Below, in pieces: positions 11,314 to 21,917 of a stretch of DNA of 64,000 nt. Position numbers and translations under genes: made by a program. The notes under the pieces are model-generated. The model was not told the origin of the DNA. It made no database searches and saw only the letters and a program-made list of their open reading frames with translations. The stretch is from Methanofollis liminatans DSM 4140 (lineage in GTDB: Archaea > Halobacteriota > Methanomicrobia > Methanomicrobiales > Methanofollaceae), in the NCBI RefSeq assembly GCF_000275865.1, contig NZ_CM001555.1, positions 1,577,099 to 1,641,098 on the forward strand, in the 5' to 3' direction. How positions within the stretch are numbered: the first letter of the stretch is position 1; every line of letters starts with the position of its first letter.

Positions 11314-11448
11314 TCTTTTTTGAGTTGAACCGGCGGGTTCAGGGAATGCCCCCCGGAGTTCCAGGGCTGATCTCAGCCGATTTGGGCAATATATCTGCTG
11401 ATGCGCCCGAACATTTACCGGAACAGTATAACCCATCGGGGGTCATGC

Positions 11449-12723
11449 ATGAAAAAGATAGTTTCGATTGTTTTGATGATGTTCTGCCTGCTCACCGGCT
11501 CAGCCGCTGCGGCAGAAACGAGCAGTTACGATGCCGCAGCCATGGTGGCGGTTACCGATGTGCAGATCAGCCCTGACGTGCTGATGAACGGCGACACCGC
11601 CACGGTCGCCGTCACGGTAAAGAACACCGGGAGCGCAAGTGTCTCCATATCCCGGGCAACATTCTTCGGCACCGGGATCTCGGTCCAGAACACCCAGACC
11701 TACGACGCCGTCGGCGACCTGGGCCCCGGGACCACGAAGACGTTCACCTTCACCATCAAGGCCGACGGTTCGGAGACCGTCTATTACCCGACGTTCTACC
11801 TGGACTTCAGGGACGCCGGAAGCCTCCGCTACCCGGTCGCCGTGAAGGTGCAGGACGAAGAGGTGCAGATATCGGTCCAGGAGATGCCCGATGTCTTCGC
11901 CGCCGACAAGAAAGAAACAGTCACGCTCCTGATAGGAAACCCGCGCGAGAACGCCGTCAGCGGCGTGACCGTCGCCCCCGCGGGCGAGGCGATCCAGAGC
12001 ACCCAGTCGAGTTCCTTCATCGGCAACCTCGATCCCGACGGATCGGCGACTGTCTCATTTGACATTGCGGCATCGCACTCCACCGACCTCACCTTCACGG
12101 TCACCTACCGCAACGGCATGAACACGCACACCTCTACCATCACCGTCCCGATAGAGGTGGGGACGTCCAAAACGGCCCCGATCATGGTGGTCAACAACCT
12201 GGCCCTGAGCAGTTCAGGCAGTTCATACGAGATCAGCGGCGACCTGAGCAATGCCGGCCTCGAGGACGCCTATTCGGTGATCGTCACCGTCGGCAGCCCG
12301 GCCCAGGGGGCGGACCCGTACCCCTCCTACGTGATCGGCTCCCTGGATTCAGATGATTTCTCGAGTTTCGAGGTGACGTTCACCGGCCAGGGCCTCACAT
12401 CGGTGCCGGTCATCGTCCAGTACAAGGATGAAGACGGCAACGATTACACGACGGCCTATACCATGAAAATGAACGGCGCCACCGCCGCCACCGGCGATAC
12501 GAGTGCGTCAGCATCTGGTTCAGGGCGCATGAGCGCCGCACCCGGCGGCGGGGGCCCCGGCGGCATGGGGATGTTCGGCATGTCGGGCGGCGGCCTCGGG
12601 ACCATACCGTTCACCCAGATCGGCATCCTCCTCGTCGTCCTGGTCGTCGGCCTTGTCGGATGGCGCAAGGGCTACCTCGGGCGCGCCCGCACGGCCCTGA
12701 AGAACCGGATGAAGAAGGAGTGA
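11449..12723 (+). CDS. Surface accessory protein of an ABC exporter (CARDB-like, membrane anchored)
   Basis: Starting at the ATG 11449, the protein is 424 residues. It has a signal peptide (MKKIVSIVLMMFCLL..), at least three CARDB-like beta-sandwich repeats (for example VAVTDVQISPDVLMNGDTATV), a Gly/Met-rich linker (GGGGPGGMGMFGMSGGG) and one C-terminal transmembrane helix with a basic tail. This is the COG1361-like layout often found beside MacB-type ABC genes in archaea. The ABC ATPase starts 10 nt downstream, so the protein is probably the extracytoplasmic partner of that transporter. A TATA-like caatatatc lies near 11385-11393. An upstream in-frame ATG at 11401 would spoil the signal peptide. 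Confidence 0.75.
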   Translation: MKKIVSIVLMMFCLLTGSAAAAETSSYDAAAMVAVTDVQISPDVLMNGDTATVAVTVKNTGSASVSISRATFFGTGISVQNTQTYDAVGDLGPGTTKTFTFTIKADGSETVYYPTFYLDFRDAGSLRYPVAVKVQDEEVQISVQEMPDVFAADKKETVTLLIGNPRENAVSGVTVAPAGEAIQSTQSSSFIGNLDPDGSATVSFDIAASHSTDLTFTVTYRNGMNTHTSTITVPIEVGTSKTAPIMVVNNLALSSSGSSYEISGDLSNAGLEDAYSVIVTVGSPAQGADPYPSYVIGSLDSDDFSSFEVTFTGQGLTSVPVIVQYKDEDGNDYTTAYTMKMNGATAATGDTSASASGSGRMSAAPGGGGPGGMGMFGMSGGGLGTIPFTQIGILLVVLVVGLVGWRKGYLGRARTALKNRMKKE

Positions 12724-12733
12724 GTGGAGAGAG

Positions 12734-13411
12734 ATGAGCAGCGTTCCGGTCATCAGCCTGAAGAACGTCGTCAAGGTGTATCCCCTGCCTGCAGGGGACG
12801 TGACGGCGCTCAGGGGGATCTCGCTCGACATCATGGAGGGGGAGTTCGTGGCGATCATGGGGCCGTCGGGGTCAGGAAAGTCCACCCTGCTCAACCAGAT
12901 CGGCAGCCTGGACGTCCCGACCTCCGGCGACCTCTTCATCGCCGGGAGGAACATCAGGGAGATGAACGACGACGAACTCACCGATATGCGGCGGGACACG
13001 ATCGGCTACATCTTCCAGAAGTTCAACCTCATCCCCCTCCTCACCCTCTACGAGAACGTGGAATACCCGCTGATCCTGAAATACGGGAAGCGGGACACGA
13101 CCGGGAGACCGATCGAACTGCTGCGGATGGTCGGACTGGAGGGGTCGATGATCGAGCACAAACCCACCGAGATCTCGGGCGGGCAGCAGCAGCGGGTGGC
13201 GATCGCCCGAGCGCTTGCCAACGACCCGAAGATCCTCCTCTGCGACGAACCCACCGGAAACCTCGATTCAAAGACGAGCGAGCAGATCATGGATCTCCTC
13301 ACCGATCTGAACCGGCAGGGGCGCACGATCATCATGGTCACCCATAACCCGGAGACGGCAGAATACGCCCACCGCACGATCGTCATCAGGGACGGGAGGA
13401 TCGCCCTATGA
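12734..13411 (+). CDS. MacB/LolD-type ABC transporter ATP-binding protein
   Basis: The 225-residue ATPase has Walker A GPSGSGKS (about residues 39-46), a Q-loop, signature motif SGGQQQR, Walker B LLCDEP and a switch histidine in MVTHNPE. The spacing and the short length match the LolD/MacB (FtsE-like) family, which couples to FtsX-fold permeases rather than to classical importers. Its last codons overlap the permease start by 4 nt. The complex likely exports or extracts a lipid-linked or peptide substrate, or works as a mechanotransmitter; the substrate is not visible. Confidence 0.92.
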   Translation: MSSVPVISLKNVVKVYPLPAGDVTALRGISLDIMEGEFVAIMGPSGSGKSTLLNQIGSLDVPTSGDLFIAGRNIREMNDDELTDMRRDTIGYIFQKFNLIPLLTLYENVEYPLILKYGKRDTTGRPIELLRMVGLEGSMIEHKPTEISGGQQQRVAIARALANDPKILLCDEPTGNLDSKTSEQIMDLLTDLNRQGRTIIMVTHNPETAEYAHRTIVIRDGRIAL

Positions 13412-14619
13412 CCGGGAACGTGATCTTCGATCTCTCGGTCAGGAACGTGAGGCGGCACTTTCTCCGCTCGTTCCTCGCCGCCATCGGGATCGTCATCGGG
13501 GTCATCGCCATCACCTCCCTCGGGATCATGGGGGCGAACCTGACCCTCTCGGTCACGGCGACGCTCTCGGAGAACAGCGACATCATCAAGGTCTCGCCGG
13601 GCGGAGGGCCGGGAGGCGGCGGCGGACCCGGGTTCGGCGGCGGAGGAGGAAGTGACGAGGAGGAATATATCGACGAGAGCCAGTTCAAGGATATCAAACA
13701 GGCCGCAAGTCCGAACACCGTGATACCGGTGTATTCGGAGTCGGATACGATAACGGTCGGTGACCTGGAAGGCCGGGCGACGGTCTACGGTCTTGACCCG
13801 GACGATATCGCCACCCTGCTCACCGTGGCGAACGGCACCTTCCTGAAGAGCACGTCGACGGCGCTGGTGGGCCCCACCCTGGCCGAGCGCTACGAACTCA
13901 AGATCGGGAGCCGGATCACGATCGGCGACGAAGACAGCGACGAGGGCACGAGCACGGTCAGGGTCGCAGGGATTCTCGAAGAGCGCGGCATGACCTACGA
14001 TATCTCCACCGACAACGCGATCGTCGTTTCCGATCGCTGGTTCACCGGGTTCTACGGCGGCGAGGGGGAATACAGCGAGGTCATCGTAAAACTCGACGAT
14101 ATCAACGATGTCGATGCGGTCGAAGAGGCGATCGACGACCAGTTGAACCGTAAAGAGGACGAGGTCACGATCTCGGACGCATCGCGGATGATGGACTCGA
14201 TCACCTCGTCGATCTCGACGATCATCTCTATGATGATGGGCATCGGGGCGATATCGCTTCTTGTCGCCTCGGTGAGCATCTTCAACGTGATGATGATGTC
14301 GGTGACCGAACGGATCAAGGAGATCGGGATCCTGCGGAGCATCGGCACCCGCCGGAGCGTGGTGCGCCGGATGTTCCTGTACGAGGCGTTCATCCTGGGG
14401 ATGCTCGGGGCGGTCGTCGGCGGGATCCTGAGCATGATCATCGGGTATCTCGTCGTCCTCGTCATGATCGGGACGACGGATTACTTCTTCACGTTCGACA
14501 GTCTGATCTATATCCCGTACGGCATAGCGGTCGGGATCGTCGTCTGCGTGCTCTCCGGGGTGTACCCGGCGTGGAGTGCGGCGAACCTCGATCCGATCGA
14601 GGCGCTGGCGACCGAGTAG
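13408..14619 (+). CDS. MacB/FtsX-like ABC transporter permease
   Basis: The 403-residue protein has one N-terminal membrane helix (SFLAAIGIVIGVIAITSLG), a large extracytoplasmic domain (about residues 55-270) and three C-terminal helices, the FtsX/MacB plan. An unusual Gly-rich insertion (about residues 64-83) sits at the start of the external domain, ahead of an acidic DEEEY patch. The conserved cytoplasmic motif ERIKEIGILRSIGTRR precedes the helices. It is coupled to the ATPase gene. A T-run at 14641-14646 follows. Confidence 0.9.
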   Translation: MTGNVIFDLSVRNVRRHFLRSFLAAIGIVIGVIAITSLGIMGANLTLSVTATLSENSDIIKVSPGGGPGGGGGPGFGGGGGSDEEEYIDESQFKDIKQAASPNTVIPVYSESDTITVGDLEGRATVYGLDPDDIATLLTVANGTFLKSTSTALVGPTLAERYELKIGSRITIGDEDSDEGTSTVRVAGILEERGMTYDISTDNAIVVSDRWFTGFYGGEGEYSEVIVKLDDINDVDAVEEAIDDQLNRKEDEVTISDASRMMDSITSSISTIISMMMGIGAISLLVASVSIFNVMMMSVTERIKEIGILRSIGTRRSVVRRMFLYEAFILGMLGAVVGGILSMIIGYLVVLVMIGTTDYFFTFDSLIYIPYGIAVGIVVCVLSGVYPAWSAANLDPIEALATE

Positions 14620-14690: not shown

Positions 14691-15488
14691 ATGAGCATGG
14701 AGCAGGAAGAAGGGCAGCATACCCTCGTGATGGAGAAGGACCAGGACTTTCTCGACGAACTCTCGGATTATCTCGATGTCCTCGGGAACGCCACGCGGCT
14801 GCGGATCCTGAAGTCCATCGAGCGGACGCCCAAGGACATGAGGACGATCTCGCGGGAGATCGAGACGAGTTACGAGAACACGAAAAAACATATCGACAAA
14901 CTCCTCCTTGCCGGTGTGATCAGGAAAGAAGCCGGAATGAGCGCTCCAACCTCGAAAGGGATCCACCCGGTCTGGAAGTATTCGGTGATCCCGGGCGGGC
15001 TTGAGGCGATCATCCAGAACCTCGGGCTGTTCTCGAATCTTCAGGTCAGTTTCGGGGATCTCGGCCTCTCCAGACGGATCGAGGATGTTCTCGGGCAGGT
15101 ATCGGAAAAACTCGGGACGGCGGCACCGGTCGTCGTGCTCCTCGGCGGCCCGGATGACGGAAAGATCTTTGCGCTTGGAGCGGAGATCATCAGCATCGGG
15201 AGGGAGGACGCGGCGGCCGTGCCATCTGATCCGGAGCGGGAGATCGTCCTCTCAGAGGAGTATGCAGCGGTCACGCGGGTCTCCCGGCCGCACTGCCGTC
15301 TCATTCATTCGTCGGGGCTGTGGCAGATCGAGGACTGCGGCAGCACCGGCGGGACGTTCGTGAACAATACCCGTCTGGCCGTCCATACAAGGACAGCGAT
15401 CCGCGACGGCGATATCATCGATCTTGGAAAAGGTGTCAGGGGGGCCAGGCTTGTCTTCAGGGTTCCAAAAGAGGAGGAAAAAGCCTGA
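14691..15488 (+). CDS. Winged-helix / FHA domain protein
   Basis: This 265-residue cytosolic protein joins an ArsR-like winged helix (about residues 20-105; LGNATRLRILKSIE, then a recognition helix near SYENTKKHIDKL) to a C-terminal FHA domain (about 147-258). All key FHA residues are present: GR at 170-171, S198 and H201 (VSRPHCRL), and GSTGGTFVNN near 217-226. FHA domains bind phosphothreonine, so this looks like a transcription factor that reads a phosphorylation signal. A membrane Ser/Thr kinase gene begins 183 nt downstream, which makes the kinase the natural writer. The ABC operon ends 71 nt upstream. Two starts, ATG 14691 and 14697, are possible; GAGGGAGG (14681-14688) favours the first. 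Confidence 0.88.
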   Translation: MSMEQEEGQHTLVMEKDQDFLDELSDYLDVLGNATRLRILKSIERTPKDMRTISREIETSYENTKKHIDKLLLAGVIRKEAGMSAPTSKGIHPVWKYSVIPGGLEAIIQNLGLFSNLQVSFGDLGLSRRIEDVLGQVSEKLGTAAPVVVLLGGPDDGKIFALGAEIISIGREDAAAVPSDPEREIVLSEEYAAVTRVSRPHCRLIHSSGLWQIEDCGSTGGTFVNNTRLAVHTRTAIRDGDIIDLGKGVRGARLVFRVPKEEEKA

Positions 15489-15670
15489 AACCATCAATTT
15501 TTCTGATCCCTGCTTCATGCACGCCTGCATGTGAACTCCACCGCGCCTGTGGGGCGTGGCTTCCCGCTCCGCCTGAACGCCCCCGCAAGATAAATAGTGA
15601 GCAGAAAAATAGTACCGACTGAAGCGGGACATGCCGGGGATGCAGGCCCACGGACAGCGGAGAACAACGT
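15489..15670. promoter_or_regulatory. Promoter region of the kinase gene
   Basis: These 182 nt separate the FHA and kinase genes. A C-rich block at 15563-15586 followed by aagataaat (15587-15595) resembles a TFB/TATA element. A similar block occurs at 5010-5042. A palindrome-like GC stretch (15541-15560) precedes it. The leader to the ATG at 15671 would be about 50 nt. Confidence 0.4.
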
Positions 15671-17398
15671 ATGAAGATGCATAAAAGAGGAGCAGCAGTA
15701 TGGATTCTTGTTCTCCTCACCCTCTTCTGCAGCGTTTGTGGATCTGCTGCCGGGGACGGGAGTGCGGGCGCTTCCAACGAGACAGTCCAGAGCGATCAGT
15801 ATCCGCATTTCCGCCCGGACACCAGCCTGAGGGAAGATGGATCCTCCGTGATCAGGAGCGTGCTGCAGTCGCTCACCCAGAGATCGCTCTACCTGCCCGA
15901 TCCTCCGGTACTCGATACGATCGATGCCAATGCCACGATCACTCCTTTCCCTGACCGGATGCCCGAGCGAATGGAGAATGAGACAGAACGGGATCGATCA
16001 TTCGGCCCGATCCCGGCGCTGGAAATCACGGGGGCGTACGTGATATTTTTGCTCACCTTCGGGCTCTCGGCGCTGCTGCTCATCCTGCTCTCAAGGGCAG
16101 GGAGGCGGATATCGGCAGGCTACGTCCTTGACTGTCCGCGATCGGTCTCCATCGCTCTTGCAGGGGGTTATCTCATCCTCGGGCTCACCGCGGGATTTTT
16201 GTCCATACCTGTGCTCTCTTTGTTCAGCGCATCCGTTCTGATGGGGAACCAGATCTGGGCCACCGGCGCGGCGGCGTTTCTGCTGGTCTACCTCCTCCTC
16301 GCATCGCTTCTTCTCTCGTATGCCGTATTCAACCGGAAGTCTTTTGTGCTCGTCCAGGCCGCCCACCCGATCCCGGCCATCGCTCTCCTCGTGACGCTCT
16401 GGATCGTCACAGAGCCCCTGTCCGGCGTGAACAGCCCGGTGCTGCTCCCGGGGTTCATGATCGCTTCGGCGCTCCTGCCCGGGATCCACGGGTATTGCAT
16501 GAGGAAAGGGACCGCTCCTGTCCCGAATGCCGGCGGATCTTCCTCGGCGCCGACGATGGTCAGCGGCGGCATCTCTGCGCCGGTGAGAACCGGGAACGGA
16601 TTCCCTCCCGAGCTGGACGACCGGTACATGGATGCCGAACTGGTGGGCAGGGGCGGGATGGCGCTGGTGTTCAGGGCGCAACGACGCGAGGACGGCGCAA
16701 CGGTGGCGGTCAAGGTGCCGACGCGCTATGACGAGATGACCGGCCACTGCTTCATGAAGGAGATGCAGATCTGGAAGGGGCTCTCGCATAAAAATATCGT
16801 CGAGGTCTACGCCTACAACATCCTCCCGGTTCCGTACGTGGAGATGGAGTACGTCGGCCCGTCTCTTGCCGATATGAATAAGCCCATCCCGCCGGATGAA
16901 GCGGTCAGGATCATCAGGGGTGTCGCGGAAGGGCTTGCCTGCGCCCATGCGGCCGGGCTGATCCACCGGGATATCAAGCCCGGCAACATCCTGATCGCCC
17001 CTGACGGGACACCCAGGATCACGGACTGGGGGCTCGGCAAGGAGGTAGCCGACCGCAAGGAAACCCGTTTCATTGCATTTTCCCTGGATTATGCCGCTCC
17101 CGAACAGATCTCGCCCGGGACCTACGGGCGCGGGGACGCACGGACCGACATCTTCCAGCTCGGGGTGGTATTCTACGAACTGCTGACCGGGAGACTGCCC
17201 TTTGCCGGGGAAGGCGTGGGAGAGGTGAGCGTCGGGATCCTCACCGCCGAACCGGTCCCGCCCTCGGGGATCATAGACACGCTCGGTGCTTTTGACGGCA
17301 TCGTCCTCAGATGCCTCGAGAAAAAACCTGACCGGCGGTATCAGTCCATCCAGGATCTTCTTTTCGACCTCGATGACGTCGAGGACAGGTCATTCTGA
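15671..17398 (+). CDS. Membrane-anchored eukaryote-type Ser/Thr protein kinase
   Basis: The 575-residue protein has a signal-like N terminus (about 8-27) and an extracytoplasmic segment of about 90 residues. Four or so membrane helices follow (about 118-275), then a cytoplasmic Hanks-type kinase domain (about 318-570). Motifs are: Gly loop GRGGMALVF (326-334), catalytic lysine in VAVKV (K348), HRDIKPGN (D434), D452-W-G in place of DFG, and APE (476-478). The Trp in DWG is unusual but keeps the Mg-binding Asp. The kinase should phosphorylate Ser/Thr on partners such as the FHA protein upstream, in response to an envelope signal. A PP2C phosphatase lies 3 kb downstream. Part of its 3' end is duplicated as a relic at 18296-18490. 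Confidence 0.9.
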   Translation: MKMHKRGAAVWILVLLTLFCSVCGSAAGDGSAGASNETVQSDQYPHFRPDTSLREDGSSVIRSVLQSLTQRSLYLPDPPVLDTIDANATITPFPDRMPERMENETERDRSFGPIPALEITGAYVIFLLTFGLSALLLILLSRAGRRISAGYVLDCPRSVSIALAGGYLILGLTAGFLSIPVLSLFSASVLMGNQIWATGAAAFLLVYLLLASLLLSYAVFNRKSFVLVQAAHPIPAIALLVTLWIVTEPLSGVNSPVLLPGFMIASALLPGIHGYCMRKGTAPVPNAGGSSSAPTMVSGGISAPVRTGNGFPPELDDRYMDAELVGRGGMALVFRAQRREDGATVAVKVPTRYDEMTGHCFMKEMQIWKGLSHKNIVEVYAYNILPVPYVEMEYVGPSLADMNKPIPPDEAVRIIRGVAEGLACAHAAGLIHRDIKPGNILIAPDGTPRITDWGLGKEVADRKETRFIAFSLDYAAPEQISPGTYGRGDARTDIFQLGVVFYELLTGRLPFAGEGVGEVSVGILTAEPVPPSGIIDTLGAFDGIVLRCLEKKPDRRYQSIQDLLFDLDDVEDRSF

Positions 17399-17553
17399 AG
17401 TCAGGAAGACCCACTACAACCACCCGGTTCAACCATGGCCCTGAGCCGTATCACACCTTAAATGGATGTATTCTGGGAATAGATATACTGAAAGGCCGAT
17501 TTTTGATCAGGGTACACGGAAAGGCTACCGGTACCACCAGAGAGGTATGAGAC

Positions 17554-18156
17554 ATGACAACGAAAACACGCATCGCGGGGATCACGGCAATGCTCTGCAT
17601 CTGTGCCCTGATCGCCGTCCCGGTAAGCGCCGCTCTGACCACCGGTCAGGGTGCGGGCGCTGGCCCCATGAAGGGCCATGGAGGCAACGGTCCGGGCACC
17701 GGGCTCCTTGACGCCCTTGCAGAACAGGGTTATGACACCACGGCACTCCAGGCGCTCCTCGACACCGCAAAGAGCGCACGGGAGAATGGAGACACCGAAG
17801 CCGCACAGGCGGCAATGGAGGAGTTCAGGGAGGCAGTGAAGAACGCAGTCGAGGAGACCGGCATTCAGGTCAGACCAATGGACAGGGAAGGACACGGCGC
17901 CGGGATCCTTGACGCCCTTGCAGAACAGGGTTATGACACCACGGCACTCCAGGCGCTCCTCGACACCGCAAAGACCGCCCATGAGAGCGGTGACACCGAA
18001 GCTGCACAGGCGGCAATGGAGGAGTTCAGGGAGGCGGTGAAGACCGCAGTCGAGGAGACCGGCATTCAGGTCGGACCCATGAACGGAGAAGACCGCGGCC
18101 AGCACCGAGCAGGCATGGGGCCGGGGGAACGGCAGAACCAGATGGAATCAGCCTGA
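17554..18156 (+). CDS. Secreted protein with two 67-residue tandem repeats
   Basis: The 200-residue protein has a clear signal peptide (MTTKTRIAGITAMLCIC..., cleavage near VSA). Two repeats follow, each containing LDALAEQGYDTTALQALLD, GDTEAAQAAMEEFREAV and EETGIQV. The repeats are offset by exactly 201 bp (17704 onward and 17905 onward) and are nearly identical in DNA, so the duplication is recent or is being homogenised. Each unit is predicted mostly helical. The tail is Gly/Arg/Gln-rich. No known domain is recognised. It sits just after the kinase gene, and relics of both genes recur together at 18.3-18.8 kb, which suggests a functional partnership, for example a ligand or substrate of the sensor kinase. 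Confidence 0.8.
   Translation: MTTKTRIAGITAMLCICALIAVPVSAALTTGQGAGAGPMKGHGGNGPGTGLLDALAEQGYDTTALQALLDTAKSARENGDTEAAQAAMEEFREAVKNAVEETGIQVRPMDREGHGAGILDALAEQGYDTTALQALLDTAKTAHESGDTEAAQAAMEEFREAVKTAVEETGIQVGPMNGEDRGQHRAGMGPGERQNQMESA
17704..18080 (+). repeat. 201-bp direct tandem repeat (two units)
   Basis: Unit 1 (about 17704-17880) and unit 2 (about 17905-18080) differ at few positions over about 175 bp; for example, gcattcaggt occurs at 17861 and again at 18062. The offset is 201 bp, or 67 codons, so both units stay in frame inside the secreted protein gene. Confidence 0.9.
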
Positions 18157-18295
18157 GCATCGGCATTGGATAGAGCAGCATCGTGATGGAGAAAAGGGAG
18201 GGGAAAGACACCTGACACCAAGGATCACTCTCTTCCCCACCTCCTGGACGCTGTCCAGGACCGAGATCAGGAACGCAGGATACCACAAGAGTGGG

Positions 18296-18490
18296 TGCTC
18301 GGCACGATCATTTACAAACGTTTGACCGGAAGACTGCCTTTTGCCGGAGAATGCGTGGGCTAAATGAGCGTTTCGATCCTCTCCGCCGAACCTGCCCCTC
18401 CGTCCAGCATTACAGAAACACTCAAACATCTTTGATGGGACTGTCCTGAGATGCCTTGAAAAAACCGGACCGGCGGTATAACATCAGGAA
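18296..18490 (+). pseudogene. Relic of the 3' end of the Ser/Thr kinase gene
   Basis: This stretch aligns with 17158-17352 of the kinase gene at an offset of 1138-1139 bp. Shared landmarks are the sequence around gactgcc (TGRLPFAGE at the protein level), the ILxAEPxPPS segment and accggcggta at 18469 versus 17331. The copy has an in-frame TAA (18361-18363) where the kinase has a Glu codon, plus frameshifting indels after it. It lacks everything before subdomain IX, so it cannot be active. Confidence 0.82.
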
Positions 18491-18633
18491 ACAGAAATCC
18501 CGCCGTCTGGTCACGCTCCCGTTCATTTCAGTTCGTGCAGGCAACGACGGCAGTGTCCCACGCTCAAACCGATCGGTTCAACGATCATCCTGAACCGTCC
18601 CTCGCATGAAGCCCGGGTATTTTAGAAATATAT

Positions 18634-18816
18634 ATGCTCGCCGGGAGATTTTTGATCAGGGTTCCCGAAAGGGGCCCGATACGATTTAGGGAGGTCATCA
18701 GAACCGTCGCCAATGAGACAGGGATTGAAATAGAGATGAAGAACGGTGAAACGCTTCTGTCAACAACAAGGATCCGGCATGGGGGCCAGGATCGACAAGC
18801 AGACCCAGACGCATAA
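18634..18816 (+). pseudogene. Relic of the secreted repeat protein gene
   Basis: A 60-residue open frame remains. Bases 18628-18662 match the promoter-leader block before the intact repeat protein (17480-17513), and 18687-18755 match the repeat tail (FREVIRTVANETGIEIE against FREAVKTAVEETGIQVG). The signal peptide and most of the repeat are missing. Together with the kinase relic it shows one duplicated block with a large internal deletion. Expression of the short frame as a peptide cannot be excluded. Confidence 0.7.
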
Positions 18817-19234
18817 ACCAGAACACCAGAGTAGCATCATGGTGGAACAGGGAGGACAATGTTACCCGTGTCAGGGGGGTTCCTGTCTTCCCGTCCTTTA
18901 CACCTGAGTTTTGACAGCATTCCCGATCTATCGATACACCTGACGTTCAGGGTGAAAACACCTATGGAAAAAAATCAGGACTCCGACCCGTTAACATCCC
19001 GGCGATCAGAAAAAGATCCGCAAACCCGGGAAAAAGAAGAGACGTTCTCCCTCTCCCGCTATCTGATCTCAATACTCGAGAAGCGGCGGTGACAACTCAC
19101 ATTCCTCTCGTCCGGGGCATCAGGATGAGAGCGACCGCGAGACGACCATCATGAAGAGCGAAATGCCTGAGGCATGCAGGTGCGGACCCATGCCATGCGA
19201 GACCGCCCACACACACCGGAGGTACGGTGAGACC
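18817..19234. other. Gene-poor stretch after the relics
   Basis: About 420 nt follow the relics. One weak candidate gene is a polar 42-residue frame from the ATG at 18964 to 19092 (MEKNQDSDPLTSRRSEK...), with no family resemblance and no good ribosome-binding site. Base composition is more AT-rich than the surrounding genes, as is the whole of 17.4-20.2 kb. The promoter of the second winged-helix gene should lie at the right end, but no clear TATA box was found. Confidence 0.35.
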
Positions 19235-19504
19235 ATGATCCAGGACGGACAATTCCGGAGGCAGTACACGACCACCCAGCAAAAAGTGCTGACCTATCTC
19301 AAAAACGGCATAAAAAAAGGCGATCGCTATTTCAAGTCCAGGTATATTGCAAAAGACCTCGGGCTGTCATCCAAGGAGGTCGGGATGAACCTTGCGATTC
19401 TTGCAGAGACCTGCGAGGAGCTCGAGATCATCCGCTGGAGTTATTCGAACTCGACCACATGGATGATCCGCCAGCAGGCGAACGCACCGGATGGTGTCGG
19501 GTAA
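19235..19504 (+). CDS. Small winged-helix DNA-binding protein, copy 2
   Basis: The 89-residue protein is a close paralogue of the one at 7277-7528. The shared core includes YLKNGI, YFKS, YIA, DLGLSSKEVG, NLAIL, CEELEI and RWSYSNSTTW, and the two start codons align without gaps. The start at 19235 is supported by GGAGGT at 19218-19223; an ATG at 19151 would add 28 unmatched residues. The recognition-helix region is almost unchanged between copies, so both probably bind the same DNA site, while the first 20 residues differ. It lies between the kinase relics and the PP2C gene. Confidence 0.75.
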   Translation: MIQDGQFRRQYTTTQQKVLTYLKNGIKKGDRYFKSRYIAKDLGLSSKEVGMNLAILAETCEELEIIRWSYSNSTTWMIRQQANAPDGVG

Positions 19505-20185
19505 GAGCATGTCCGATCGCCAGTGAGAGGGCTTTCCCTGGGGAAAAAGCAACCATTTCTTCAAAAAAATCGTTCCTCATCAGGCAGGACAGTGCCGGTT
19601 CAGCACCAGAGGTGCAATTTCTCTTCGATGATCTCCGACCGCACCGGGCCTGGTACATCTGCGAAAAACCATTGATGCCCGATCCCTTCCTGGTGCCGCC
19701 CACCAGAGGATAGAACAGAATGGTTCAACCCATTTCCTGTCGTGTTTAATCAATAGAGCAAAGGCATTATGGAAATATATAACCTCAGAGGTCCATTTTT
19801 TCTTCGGGTGCTGGAAACGGCATCCACACACGAATCGGAGGGATCACCTGAAGAAAACGAGAAAGTGTCCTCAGGAGAGCGCCGCACGATACTCAAAACA
19901 GGTGGGCCTGATCTGAAGGCAGGTCCCTGAACTGCTACGAGTATAAAAGCTGCCTCCTCAACAACGGGAGGAGAAGGGAAGGAAGGATACCGCCTCATTC
20001 ACCCTCCTCCCCACCAGGCGTCGGGGACCTGCGGGCCTGATCGTACGCACCGCCAGAGGTCAGGTGCAAAGGACATCCTGATAATGCCGTCGCAGGCCTG
20101 TTTCAGAGGATATGCCTACCTTTCGATTTTTAATCCCTATTCCCAACGAATTTAATAGACAACCCGGAGAAAAGAGGAACACACC
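19505..20185. other. Long intergenic region with a third promoter-like block
   Basis: About 680 nt contain no firm gene. At 19769-19815 a block with a strong TATA (aaatatataacc) followed by a T-run and a cggg motif resembles those at 17480 and 18628. An ATG at 19769 opens a 53-codon frame whose start (LRGPFFLRV) recalls the LAGRFLIRV of the relic at 18634. It may be a further, more decayed copy. A hairpin (CTCCTC/GAGGAG) lies near 19952-19974. Confidence 0.35.
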
Positions 20186-20386
20186 GTGCAAAAACTGAAA
20201 GAAGAATTCTCACGATCACGGACCGCCTTTTTCGAGGAGGTGCGCACCCTCCATGAAGCATACGTACTGTCGCAGCCGGCACCCTCCGCAGGTGAGGAGG
20301 CACCGGCCGATTCAATCCTCGCTGCACTGGCGTCGGTGCTGGGGTATACCTGCCGGTCCTGCGAAGAGACCTCTGCATCCGGCTAA
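20186..20386 (+). CDS. Small 66-residue protein in front of the PP2C phosphatase
   Basis: A GTG-initiated frame with AGAGGA about 10 nt upstream encodes an acidic protein: a helical first half (KEEFSRSRTAFFEEVRTLHEAYVL) and a C-terminal CRSCEE motif. It ends 18 nt before the phosphatase start, so the two are probably co-transcribed. It has no recognised family. It might be a small regulator of the phosphatase. Confidence 0.5.
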   Translation: MQKLKEEFSRSRTAFFEEVRTLHEAYVLSQPAPSAGEEAPADSILAALASVLGYTCRSCEETSASG

Positions 20387-20404
20387 AAAAAGAGGAAGAG
20401 AGGG

Positions 20405-21118
20405 GTGAGAGTGGTCAGGTACGATATCTGCGGCATGACGCACGCCGGCCAGAAAGGCCGGAATGAAGATGCGTACGCCGTGATAGAGATCGCCGACGCA
20501 TCCCTTCTCGCCGTTGCCGACGGGGTGGGCGGGGAGGTGCACGGCGACCGGGCGGCGCAGATCGCGATCGAGAGTGTCACCGCTGCCTTCACCGGGACAT
20601 ACCGGCGGGGGATGGAAAGGGGAGAGATCAAGGATCTTCTGGCGTCCGCCTTTGCCGAAGCGGACCTGCGGATCAGGGAGACGGCGAAGAGCGAGGGAAG
20701 AATGGGAACGACCCTTGTCGCCGCCATCATCACAAACCGCTGCGTCGTGATCGCAAACTGCGGAGACAGCCGGGCGTTTGTCACCGGGACCGGCATGAGA
20801 TTCAGGACGCGGGAACACACGTTGGTACAGATGCTGCTCGAACAGGGGTCCATCGACGCCGCGGAGGCGAGGCATCACCCCCTCAGGAACGTGATCGTCC
20901 ATGCGCTCGGCATCACGATGACGGTTGACCTCTATGAAGAGGATCTCCGGCCAGGAGAGATCCTGGTCCTCTGCAGCGACGGCCTTCCAGACGAAGCGGC
21001 CCGGGAGATCCTCTCTTCAGGGGCTGAAAGGGGGAGCGAGGAGATCGCGCGGGAACTCCTGCAGGGGGGCATCGCCAGATCAGACGACGACGTGACTGTT
21101 GTCGTCTTGAAAGAATAG
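20405..21118 (+). CDS. PP2C-family Ser/Thr protein phosphatase
   Basis: The 237-residue protein is a stand-alone PP2C catalytic domain. Metal-binding and core motifs are all present: GRNEDAY (D22), ADGVGGE (D39, G40), MGTTLVAA, NCGDSRAF, LCSDGLPDEA and the final DDVTVVVL. It removes phosphate from Ser/Thr in a Mn/Mg-dependent reaction and is the likely antagonist of the Hanks-type kinase at 15.7-17.4 kb. The start is GTG at 20405 behind a purine-rich site (20388-20403); GTG 20411 is an alternative. It ends 7 nt from the stop of the convergent membrane protein gene. Confidence 0.92.
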   Translation: MRVVRYDICGMTHAGQKGRNEDAYAVIEIADASLLAVADGVGGEVHGDRAAQIAIESVTAAFTGTYRRGMERGEIKDLLASAFAEADLRIRETAKSEGRMGTTLVAAIITNRCVVIANCGDSRAFVTGTGMRFRTREHTLVQMLLEQGSIDAAEARHHPLRNVIVHALGITMTVDLYEEDLRPGEILVLCSDGLPDEAAREILSSGAERGSEEIARELLQGGIARSDDDVTVVVLKE

Positions 21119-21125
21119 GTCTATT

Positions 21126-21917
21126 TTATGCGATCAGCGCCAGCCAGGCGAGGAGCAGGGCGACGATCACCGGCTGGTGGATGAGATAGATCAGGAGCGA
21201 GTTTCGTCCCATTGCGCAGACGATCTCAGACCCGGCCAGATTGAACGCAGGCAGAAAAAACCGTCTTTTACCGCCGGGATAGAGGAGGAACCCGGCGCCC
21301 ATCCCGATCAGCGCAACCCCGAGCCAGGGGATCAGCGGCACATAGTCCACGCTGTAAAAGACAGCCGGATGGATGCCGAGGGGCACGAGCCAGTACGGTC
21401 CGGTCACCCTGTCGAGGGGGAGGGCCGCAAGCACGATCCCTGCCCCCATGAGAAGGTTCCACCTCCCGAACCTGAGGAAGAAGGGGGCGAGGATGATCGC
21501 GGTCCCGATGAGGTGGAGGATGCCGAAGACGATGAACCCGTCGCCGATGAAGAGCCAGGTGGCAATGGTGGCGAGCAGCCCGAACGCGAAGATCTTTGCG
21601 CCCCTCCGCCCATAGTCCAGCCAGAGAGAGAGGCCGGTTTCCCGGTCTTTTCGTCTGGCATAGCTGATCGGCAGGGACAGACCGGCAAGGGCGATGAAGA
21701 GGGTGGCGGTGGCAAGGGCAAATGAGCGCCAGAACCCGCCCAGCACATCGATCGCCGCGACGCCGAAGAAGGCGAGATCGAAGAGGAGATGGTAGACGAC
21801 CATCATGATGATGGCGACGCCCCGCAGGAAGTCGATCTCCCGGAACCGACGGGGGGAGGTGTGGGTGGAGATTAGGCCCAGCACCCGTGCTGAAAGGGTG
21901 GGGAGGTGCTGGATCAT
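21126..21917 (-). CDS. DUF1624 / heparan-alpha-glucosaminide N-acetyltransferase-like membrane protein
   Basis: The 263-residue integral membrane protein starts with RFREIDFLRGVAIIMMVVYHLLFDL, in which an R-x-x-x-x-D-x-x-R-G motif and a His in the first helix are hallmarks of the HGSNAT/DUF1624 acyltransferase group. Seven or so hydrophobic helices follow. Members move acyl groups across membranes or act on glycans; the substrate here is unknown. It is monocistronic, convergent with the phosphatase gene and divergent from the receiver protein gene. Confidence 0.8.
   Translation of the reverse strand: MIQHLPTLSARVLGLISTHTSPRRFREIDFLRGVAIIMMVVYHLLFDLAFFGVAAIDVLGGFWRSFALATATLFIALAGLSLPISYARRKDRETGLSLWLDYGRRGAKIFAFGLLATIATWLFIGDGFIVFGILHLIGTAIILAPFFLRFGRWNLLMGAGIVLAALPLDRVTGPYWLVPLGIHPAVFYSVDYVPLIPWLGVALIGMGAGFLLYPGGKRRFFLPAFNLAGSEIVCAMGRNSLLIYLIHQPVIVALLLAWLALIA

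Follow-up and report, generated by a model that had tools for sequence, protein, structure and literature searches.

A candidate phospho-threonine switch formed by a Hanks-type kinase and a co-evolving FHA-winged-helix regulator in Methanomicrobiales

How might a signal at the envelope of a methanogen reach its promoters through Ser/Thr phosphorylation? The question is raised by a 64,000-nucleotide stretch of the Methanofollis liminatans DSM 4140 genome (the window; contig NZ_CM001555.1, with all coordinates below counted from its first letter), in which, within 6.4 kb and all on the plus strand, lie the genes of a transcription regulator combining a winged helix-turn-helix (wHTH) with an FHA domain (14691–15488), a membrane Hanks-type Ser/Thr kinase (15671–17398), a secreted helical two-repeat protein (17554–18156) and a PP2C-type phosphatase (20405–21118). 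The initial annotation of this DNA had read them as a closed set of reader, writer and eraser that forms a one-operon route from envelope signal to transcription. All four genes are present as described, as is the MacB-like exporter operon reported directly upstream, which ends 71 bp 5' of the FHA gene. Here we show that in Methanomicrobiales reader and writer are obligately paired and co-evolving, and we consider it fairly probable that the locus works as a phospho-threonine switch, in which the kinase would act on the regulator and the regulator, through a palindrome, would turn on the exporter and secreted-protein genes. Signalling of this eukaryote-style kind has seldom been reported from archaea.

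In a survey of 199 Methanomicrobiales genomes for the FHA-wHTH regulator, the kinase and PP2C, 132 of the 134 genomes with a strong FHA-wHTH match also encode a Hanks-type kinase (Fisher p 6e-34, a nominal value since the genomes are related). This contradicts the possibility, raised in the initial annotation as one that would undo its reading, that the two families never occur together. Gene neighbourhoods were compared in a discovery set of 61 FHA-wHTH genes (60 fetched neighbourhoods plus the window) and a validation set of 62 FHA-wHTH genes from loci unused before. Across both sets the kinase gene directly follows the FHA-wHTH gene on the same strand in 116 of 123 cases. Specifically, it lies no more than 450 bp away on the same strand in 57 of the 61 discovery genes, the four exceptions being two loci cut by contig ends, one convergent arrangement and one cluster (L072) with a second, divergent FHA gene; in the validation set it stands beside the regulator in 59 of 62, with two contig-end cuts and one convergent arrangement. 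The trees of the regulator and the kinase domain also mirror each other, with a mirror-tree correlation of 0.68 against a maximum of 0.28 in 2000 permutations. In each of the 13 genomes that carry two or three pairs, the actual partners fit each other better than any swapped combination. Since the FHA-kinase pair is so conserved, a chance association of neighbouring genes is excluded. In the genome under study there are just two FHA proteins, two strong Pkinase domains and a single PP2C, and its second FHA gene, located elsewhere, is directly followed by the second kinase in an identical layout. A comparison with 393 genomes of the phylum confines the full-length FHA-wHTH family to Methanomicrobiales.

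The kinase appears fit to serve as the writer. Its domain (PF00069, E=1.9e-38) retains the Gly-rich loop, K348, the H432-R-D434 motif, N439 and APE, and its best fold match is PknB. The DFG motif reads DWG, as it does in 58 of 58 aligned kinases; the metal-binding Asp and the Gly are retained, and the catalytic residues are invariant. An N-terminal signal or transmembrane (TM) segment is followed by an outer stretch of about 90 residues, five TM helices and a cytosolic kinase domain at residues 319–575. The extracytoplasmic segment claimed in the initial annotation thus exists as an outer stretch, which is modelled with low confidence (predicted local distance difference test score, pLDDT, below 50 for residues 24–113) and is probably disordered. 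A folded extracytoplasmic sensor domain was rejected on the same score, and in the model the five-helix membrane bundle may be the sensor instead. The PASTA-kinase model NF033483 matches the kinase domain only, at 203 bits against a cut-off of 450, and the protein has no PASTA domain.

The regulator joins a wHTH (residues 18–99) to an FHA domain (residues 146–257; PF00498, E=1.6e-13, above cut-off) through a linker of only about 40 helical residues in the model. In the window protein alone the wHTH falls below Pfam cut-offs; the ArsR HTH_5 model is matched in 24 of 28 family members, and the wHTH profile matches archaeal and bacterial ArsR-family structures, best of all the archaeal ArsR-family regulator 2p4w. 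The model gives a confident winged helix, with helices at 18–31, 34–42, 50–57 and 61–74 and a two-strand wing. A profile search of the 28 family members returned no BTAD or SARP domain. Across regulators, S60, Y61, N63, T64, K66 and H67 of the recognition-helix region are nearly invariant. In the ligand pocket of the FHA domain, R171 and H201 are invariant and position 198 (S198 here) is Ser or Thr, and the position of the Asn that canonically follows the Ser-Thr is G220 here and Gly in most members. Some FHA proteins, GarA among them, work solely by binding other proteins, and GarA is also one of the nearest FHA folds. The methanogen protein could be mainly a scaffold or anti-regulator with a vestigial wHTH, its phospho-binding acting straight on the kinase or on the MacB exporter protein. 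We regard this as very improbable, for the recognition-helix region would hardly have stayed nearly invariant in a DNA-binding domain that had become vestigial, and predicted operators are present at these loci.

What the FHA domain would read is suggested by the regulator's own N-terminal tail, which is predicted to be disordered (pLDDT below 50) and is variable in sequence apart from one threonine, Thr11 in the window protein (codon 14721–14723, plus strand). This threonine is kept in 120 of 121 regulators (57 of 58 and 63 of 63 in the two sets), and substitution by serine was never seen among them. The residue at +1 is Ile, Val or Leu, and those at +2 and +3 are mostly aliphatic. FHA domains are readers of phospho-threonine, and the nearest FHA folds are those of GarA, OdhI and Bdellovibrio DgcB, the last bound to the phosphorylated peptide from its own N terminus. 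In DgcB, hydrophobic residues at +2 and +3 are reported as recognised features of the tail (PMC6733907). Given the conserved threonine with its hydrophobic followers, the specificity of FHA domains and the tail-bound DgcB among the nearest folds, we propose that Thr11 is the phospho-acceptor and that phospho-Thr11 docks on the FHA domain of the regulator. In the cluster with two FHA-wHTH genes (L072), the first is followed by a PP2C gene and the second, divergent and without Thr11, by the kinase gene.

Where the regulator might act was approached by comparing upstream regions. In Methanofollis, the palindrome TTGAACC-N4-GGTTCAA was found both before the exporter cassette and before the repeat-protein gene. 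The cassette consists of three plus-strand genes, which encode a secreted or membrane-anchored CARDB-domain protein (11401–12723; Pfam CARDB E=2.3e-8), a MacB/LolD-like ABC transporter ATPase (12734–13411; PF00005 E=8e-35) and a MacB/LolC-type permease (13408–14619; MacB_PCD E=9.5e-24, FtsX E=1.3e-20). Predicted operator 1, TTGAACCGGCGGGTTCAG (11325–11342, core AACC-N4-GGTT at 11328–11339), lies upstream of the presumed CARDB-MacAB-FHA transcription unit and is the best match to the palindrome in the whole 2.475 Mb genome; a TATA-like box, AATATATC (11388–11395, plus strand), follows 48 bp after it. The placement of operator 1 and its TATA box implies that CARDB translation begins after about 11420, and the true start is likely at 11449 (MKKIVSIVLMMFCLLTG...). 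Predicted operator 2, TACAACCACCCGGTTCAA (17415–17432), lies between the kinase stop codon and the repeat-protein gene, with a TATA-like box, TAGATATA (17480–17487, plus strand), 50 bp after it. A decayed operator/promoter copy, TCAAACCGATCGGTTCAA (18564–18581), precedes a repeat-protein remnant, and a third, more degenerate operator-like site, TAGAACAGAATGGTTCAA, lies at 19711–19728. In genome-wide pattern searches, four of only 10 sites with at most two mismatches to TTGAACC-N4-GGTTCAA fall within this 8.4-kb locus. Another motif, TTGATCAGG, first spotted ahead of the FHA gene and the repeat-protein gene, was dropped, since it is confined to the duplicated promoters and relatives do not generally share it.

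The palindrome recurs with the module beyond this genome. Outside Methanofollis, de novo enumeration of 6-base half-sites gave weak matches until these were trimmed to the AACC/GGTT core. With that core, 26 AACC-N4-GGTT sites were counted in module flanks of the discovery set against 0.56 in simulation (maximum 3), and 18 in the validation set against 0.64 (maximum 4). In both sets together the 4-base spacer gives 44 sites, compared with a mean of 1.9 at 12 other spacers. The core stands upstream of eight of 10 linked MacB cassettes from three families (three of four in the validation set) and in seven of eight linked repeat-protein promoters. Its position changes with the family: before the FHA gene in Methanoregulaceae, after the kinase gene in Methanofollis and in family f2, before the PP2C gene at some f2 loci, and before CARDB genes. 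In Methanofollis the post-kinase site is intact or slightly decayed in most FHA-kinase pairs of both paralogue types. Of the genes that were profiled, those for the FHA-wHTH protein and the kinase are the only ones that all site-bearing modules share. Because the site shifts position across families yet stays with the module, and because the recognition region is nearly invariant, the FHA-wHTH protein is the most parsimonious candidate to bind the palindrome. The direct transcriptional output claimed in the initial annotation has thereby gained a concrete candidate operator and become likely, with DNA binding itself deduced from these sequence patterns.

Two side observations concern what follows the sites. 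In the second Methanofollis pair (L040 9890–10170, L047 and L037, the last at G000:C1 ~2124600), the palindrome is followed not by the helical repeat protein but by a small secreted protein rich in Cys. Additional AACC-N4-GGTT sites lie about 1 kb past the kinase gene at L079 (12713), L082 (12330) and L087 (12236), each before a small lipoprotein-like gene with an SGCT lipobox.

An unrelated regulator could read the palindrome and merely share these promoters, with the kinase-FHA pair acting elsewhere. Copies of TGAACC-N4-GGTTCA do occur away from FHA loci, in Methanoculleus and as 16 near-identical copies in one genome (G001), and another genome (G062) has sites and no strong FHA-wHTH or kinase match. 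Against this explanation, 13 of the 25 perfect sites in Methanofollis lie at FHA loci, which account for some 1–2% of the genome (binomial p ~3e-16 at an assumed 2% coverage), and the site keeps company with the FHA-kinase module while changing gene position from family to family. The G001 sites (L181–L195) are scattered over the genome, mostly share one spacer (TGCG/CGCA) and have the look of a family of repeats or of a more extensive regulon. Neither these nor the Methanoculleus copies were counted as a regulon of the module, being away from FHA modules and in many cases at gene ends or with a single shared spacer. We therefore judge an unrelated reader quite improbable, and recognition by the FHA-wHTH protein remains our preferred reading.

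The direction of control is suggested by the spacing between the site and the TATA box. After kinase genes and before CARDB genes, this distance clusters at 25–30 and 46–50 bp, the latter including that of operator 1, and the two clusters are about two helical turns apart; before FHA genes it is 35–38 or 47–50 bp. Archaeal activators usually sit upstream of the TATA box, and the fixed distances, 25–50 bp upstream, favour an activator role. On the other hand, winged helices of the ArsR family are often repressors, and the best structural match of the wHTH is an ArsR-family protein. The regulator might accordingly repress at the palindrome until phosphorylation releases it, so that the exporter and secreted protein are de-repressed, and the conserved autoregulation is compatible with either sign. 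Most sites cover neither the TATA box nor the start site and are instead placed 25–50 bp ahead of the box, and we consider repression unlikely, while giving it more weight than a scaffold role or an unrelated reader. An activator thus appears the better description.

Taken together, these data suggest the following scheme. Upon a membrane signal, the Hanks-type kinase, with its PknB-like domain behind the five-helix bundle, would phosphorylate the FHA-wHTH protein, whose gene immediately precedes that of the kinase, with the invariant Thr11 of the disordered tail as the most likely acceptor. The FHA domain would then bind the phosphorylated tail, in cis or in a partner molecule, as in OdhI, GarA and DgcB, and this docking would alter the dimer or DNA-binding state of the regulator. 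Its ArsR-like winged helix would bind AACC-N4-GGTT upstream of TATA boxes and activate both the MacB-like exporter unit and the small secreted-protein gene. Because the exporter unit probably carries the gene of the regulator itself, presumably co-transcribed with it, the circuit would include a feedback loop. PP2C, where present, would reset the switch. By its predicted operator, the upstream MacB-like exporter belongs to the predicted regulon of the module, and the secreted repeat protein, which has a signal peptide (by inspection) and two 67-residue repeats, is best seen as a target of the module rather than one of its components.

Several observations weigh against this scheme. Most members have Gly in place of the canonical Asn of the FHA pocket, so they may bind their ligand in an atypical way. 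The perfect core is found in the immediate flanks of only 24 of 57 and 16 of 59 loci, and four of five inspected loci of the Methanoculleus family lack it before the FHA gene. The 35–38 bp class before FHA genes in Methanoregulaceae means that the two-class phasing is not universal. Finally, PP2C was not detected in 19 of the 132 genomes with both FHA-wHTH and kinase, including six of 11 Methanofollis genomes, so that the closed reader-writer-eraser set, whose genes are all present in this genome, fails as a rule. The phosphatase of the window is the genome's only match to PF13672 (PP2C_2; E=2.8e-15, above cut-off), scores E=1.5e-46 against the NCBIfam Stp1 model, below that model's cut-off, and carries the motifs RNED, DGVGG, GDSRAF, CSDG and DDDVT, in keeping with a PP2C fold with metal-binding Asp motifs. 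No curated NCBIfam model covers these module proteins at its cut-off. In several lineages PP2C adjoins the module in varying order and in others it is encoded elsewhere in the genome, and we infer that it could act as the eraser.

The one-operon reading does not hold either, because the repeat-protein gene has its own predicted operator and TATA box and the PP2C gene lies 2.2 kb further downstream, behind a decayed duplication. The intergenic gaps are 182 bp between the FHA and kinase genes, 155 bp between the kinase and repeat-protein genes and 2248 bp before the PP2C gene, the last containing a DUF7123 gene, a small conserved open reading frame (ORF) and a decayed duplicate. The decayed tandem duplication (18322–18752) comprises the kinase 3' end (18322–18479, plus strand, 76% nucleotide identity, with an in-frame stop), the operator/promoter and the repeat-protein remnant; a third degenerate promoter copy is seen at about 19711–19790. 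Inside the repeat-protein gene, a directly adjacent 201-nt tandem repeat (17695–18096) is 90% identical, which suggests that this gene expanded recently. Two neighbours of the PP2C gene are also of note. A 66-residue ORF directly before it (20186–20386) is closely matched by homologues that precede PP2C in L054, while L038 and L039 contain similar sequence, and an HGSNAT-type acyltransferase gene (21126–21917, minus strand), convergent with PP2C, is kept beside it in Methanofollis (L038, L039 and L054).

Beyond the Sulfolobus Arn network, little is known of how archaeal Hanks-type kinases are coupled to gene expression. In the methanogen order to which Methanofollis, Methanoculleus and Methanoregula belong, from one to several co-evolving kinase-FHA-wHTH pairs are found per genome, and predictions now exist for the phospho-site, the operator and the targets, which makes each step of the module testable. 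More tentatively than for the switch itself, and with slightly more doubt than confidence, we suggest a Methanomicrobiales-specific Ser/Thr counterpart of the two-component system, in which a membrane kinase is dedicated to a single protein that acts as both reader and transcription factor. This protein would be toggled by docking of its phosphorylated N-terminal tail on its own FHA domain and autoregulated through AACC-N4-GGTT at fixed TATA distances, and the two partners, duplicated together into several parallel pairs per genome, would control secreted proteins and MacB-type exporters. A literature search that covered few subscription journals returned no paper on the module in methanogens, and the sole archaeal FHA-kinase system it found was the Sulfolobus Arn network.

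Comparison with known systems places the module among several partial relatives. Like the bacterial PknB/PASTA kinases with PstP/Stp1, it has a kinase fold closest to PknB and a PP2C of the Stp1 type; unlike them, it has no PASTA domain, an inverted topology and a PP2C that is not obligately linked. The Sulfolobales ArnA/ArnB proteins with the kinases ArnC and ArnD likewise join archaeal Hanks-type kinases to a transcription-affecting FHA protein, whereas ArnA lacks a wHTH fusion and has a vWA partner, the eraser is PP2A and the phylum is different. Archaeal FHA proteins have been stated to be conserved only in Crenarchaeota (PMC10470591), a statement that the Methanomicrobiales FHA-wHTH family contradicts. 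OdhI, GarA and DgcB offer the nearest FHA fold and a disordered N-terminal tail in which hydrophobic residues come after a conserved Thr; their output is enzyme inhibition or a diguanylate cyclase rather than DNA binding, and tail binding in the methanogen protein is predicted by analogy with them. The closest design is PknH-EmbR of Mycobacterium tuberculosis. EmbR also unites an N-terminal winged DNA-binding domain and a C-terminal FHA domain in one protein and is encoded in one operon just upstream of the membrane Hanks-type kinase PknH (PMC9239209), the gene order seen in 116 of 123 cases here, and envelope-related targets have been proposed in both systems; in vivo phosphorylation of EmbR and its control of embCAB are disputed (PMC9239209). 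EmbR has an OmpR/SARP-type domain plus BTAD, whereas the methanogen regulator is ArsR-like without BTAD, the catalytic domain of its kinase comes after five TM helices, at the C-terminal end, and its phospho-site is probably the invariant Thr of the N-terminal tail. By this comparison, the methanogen module resembles an independent assembly of the same design from ArsR-type parts.

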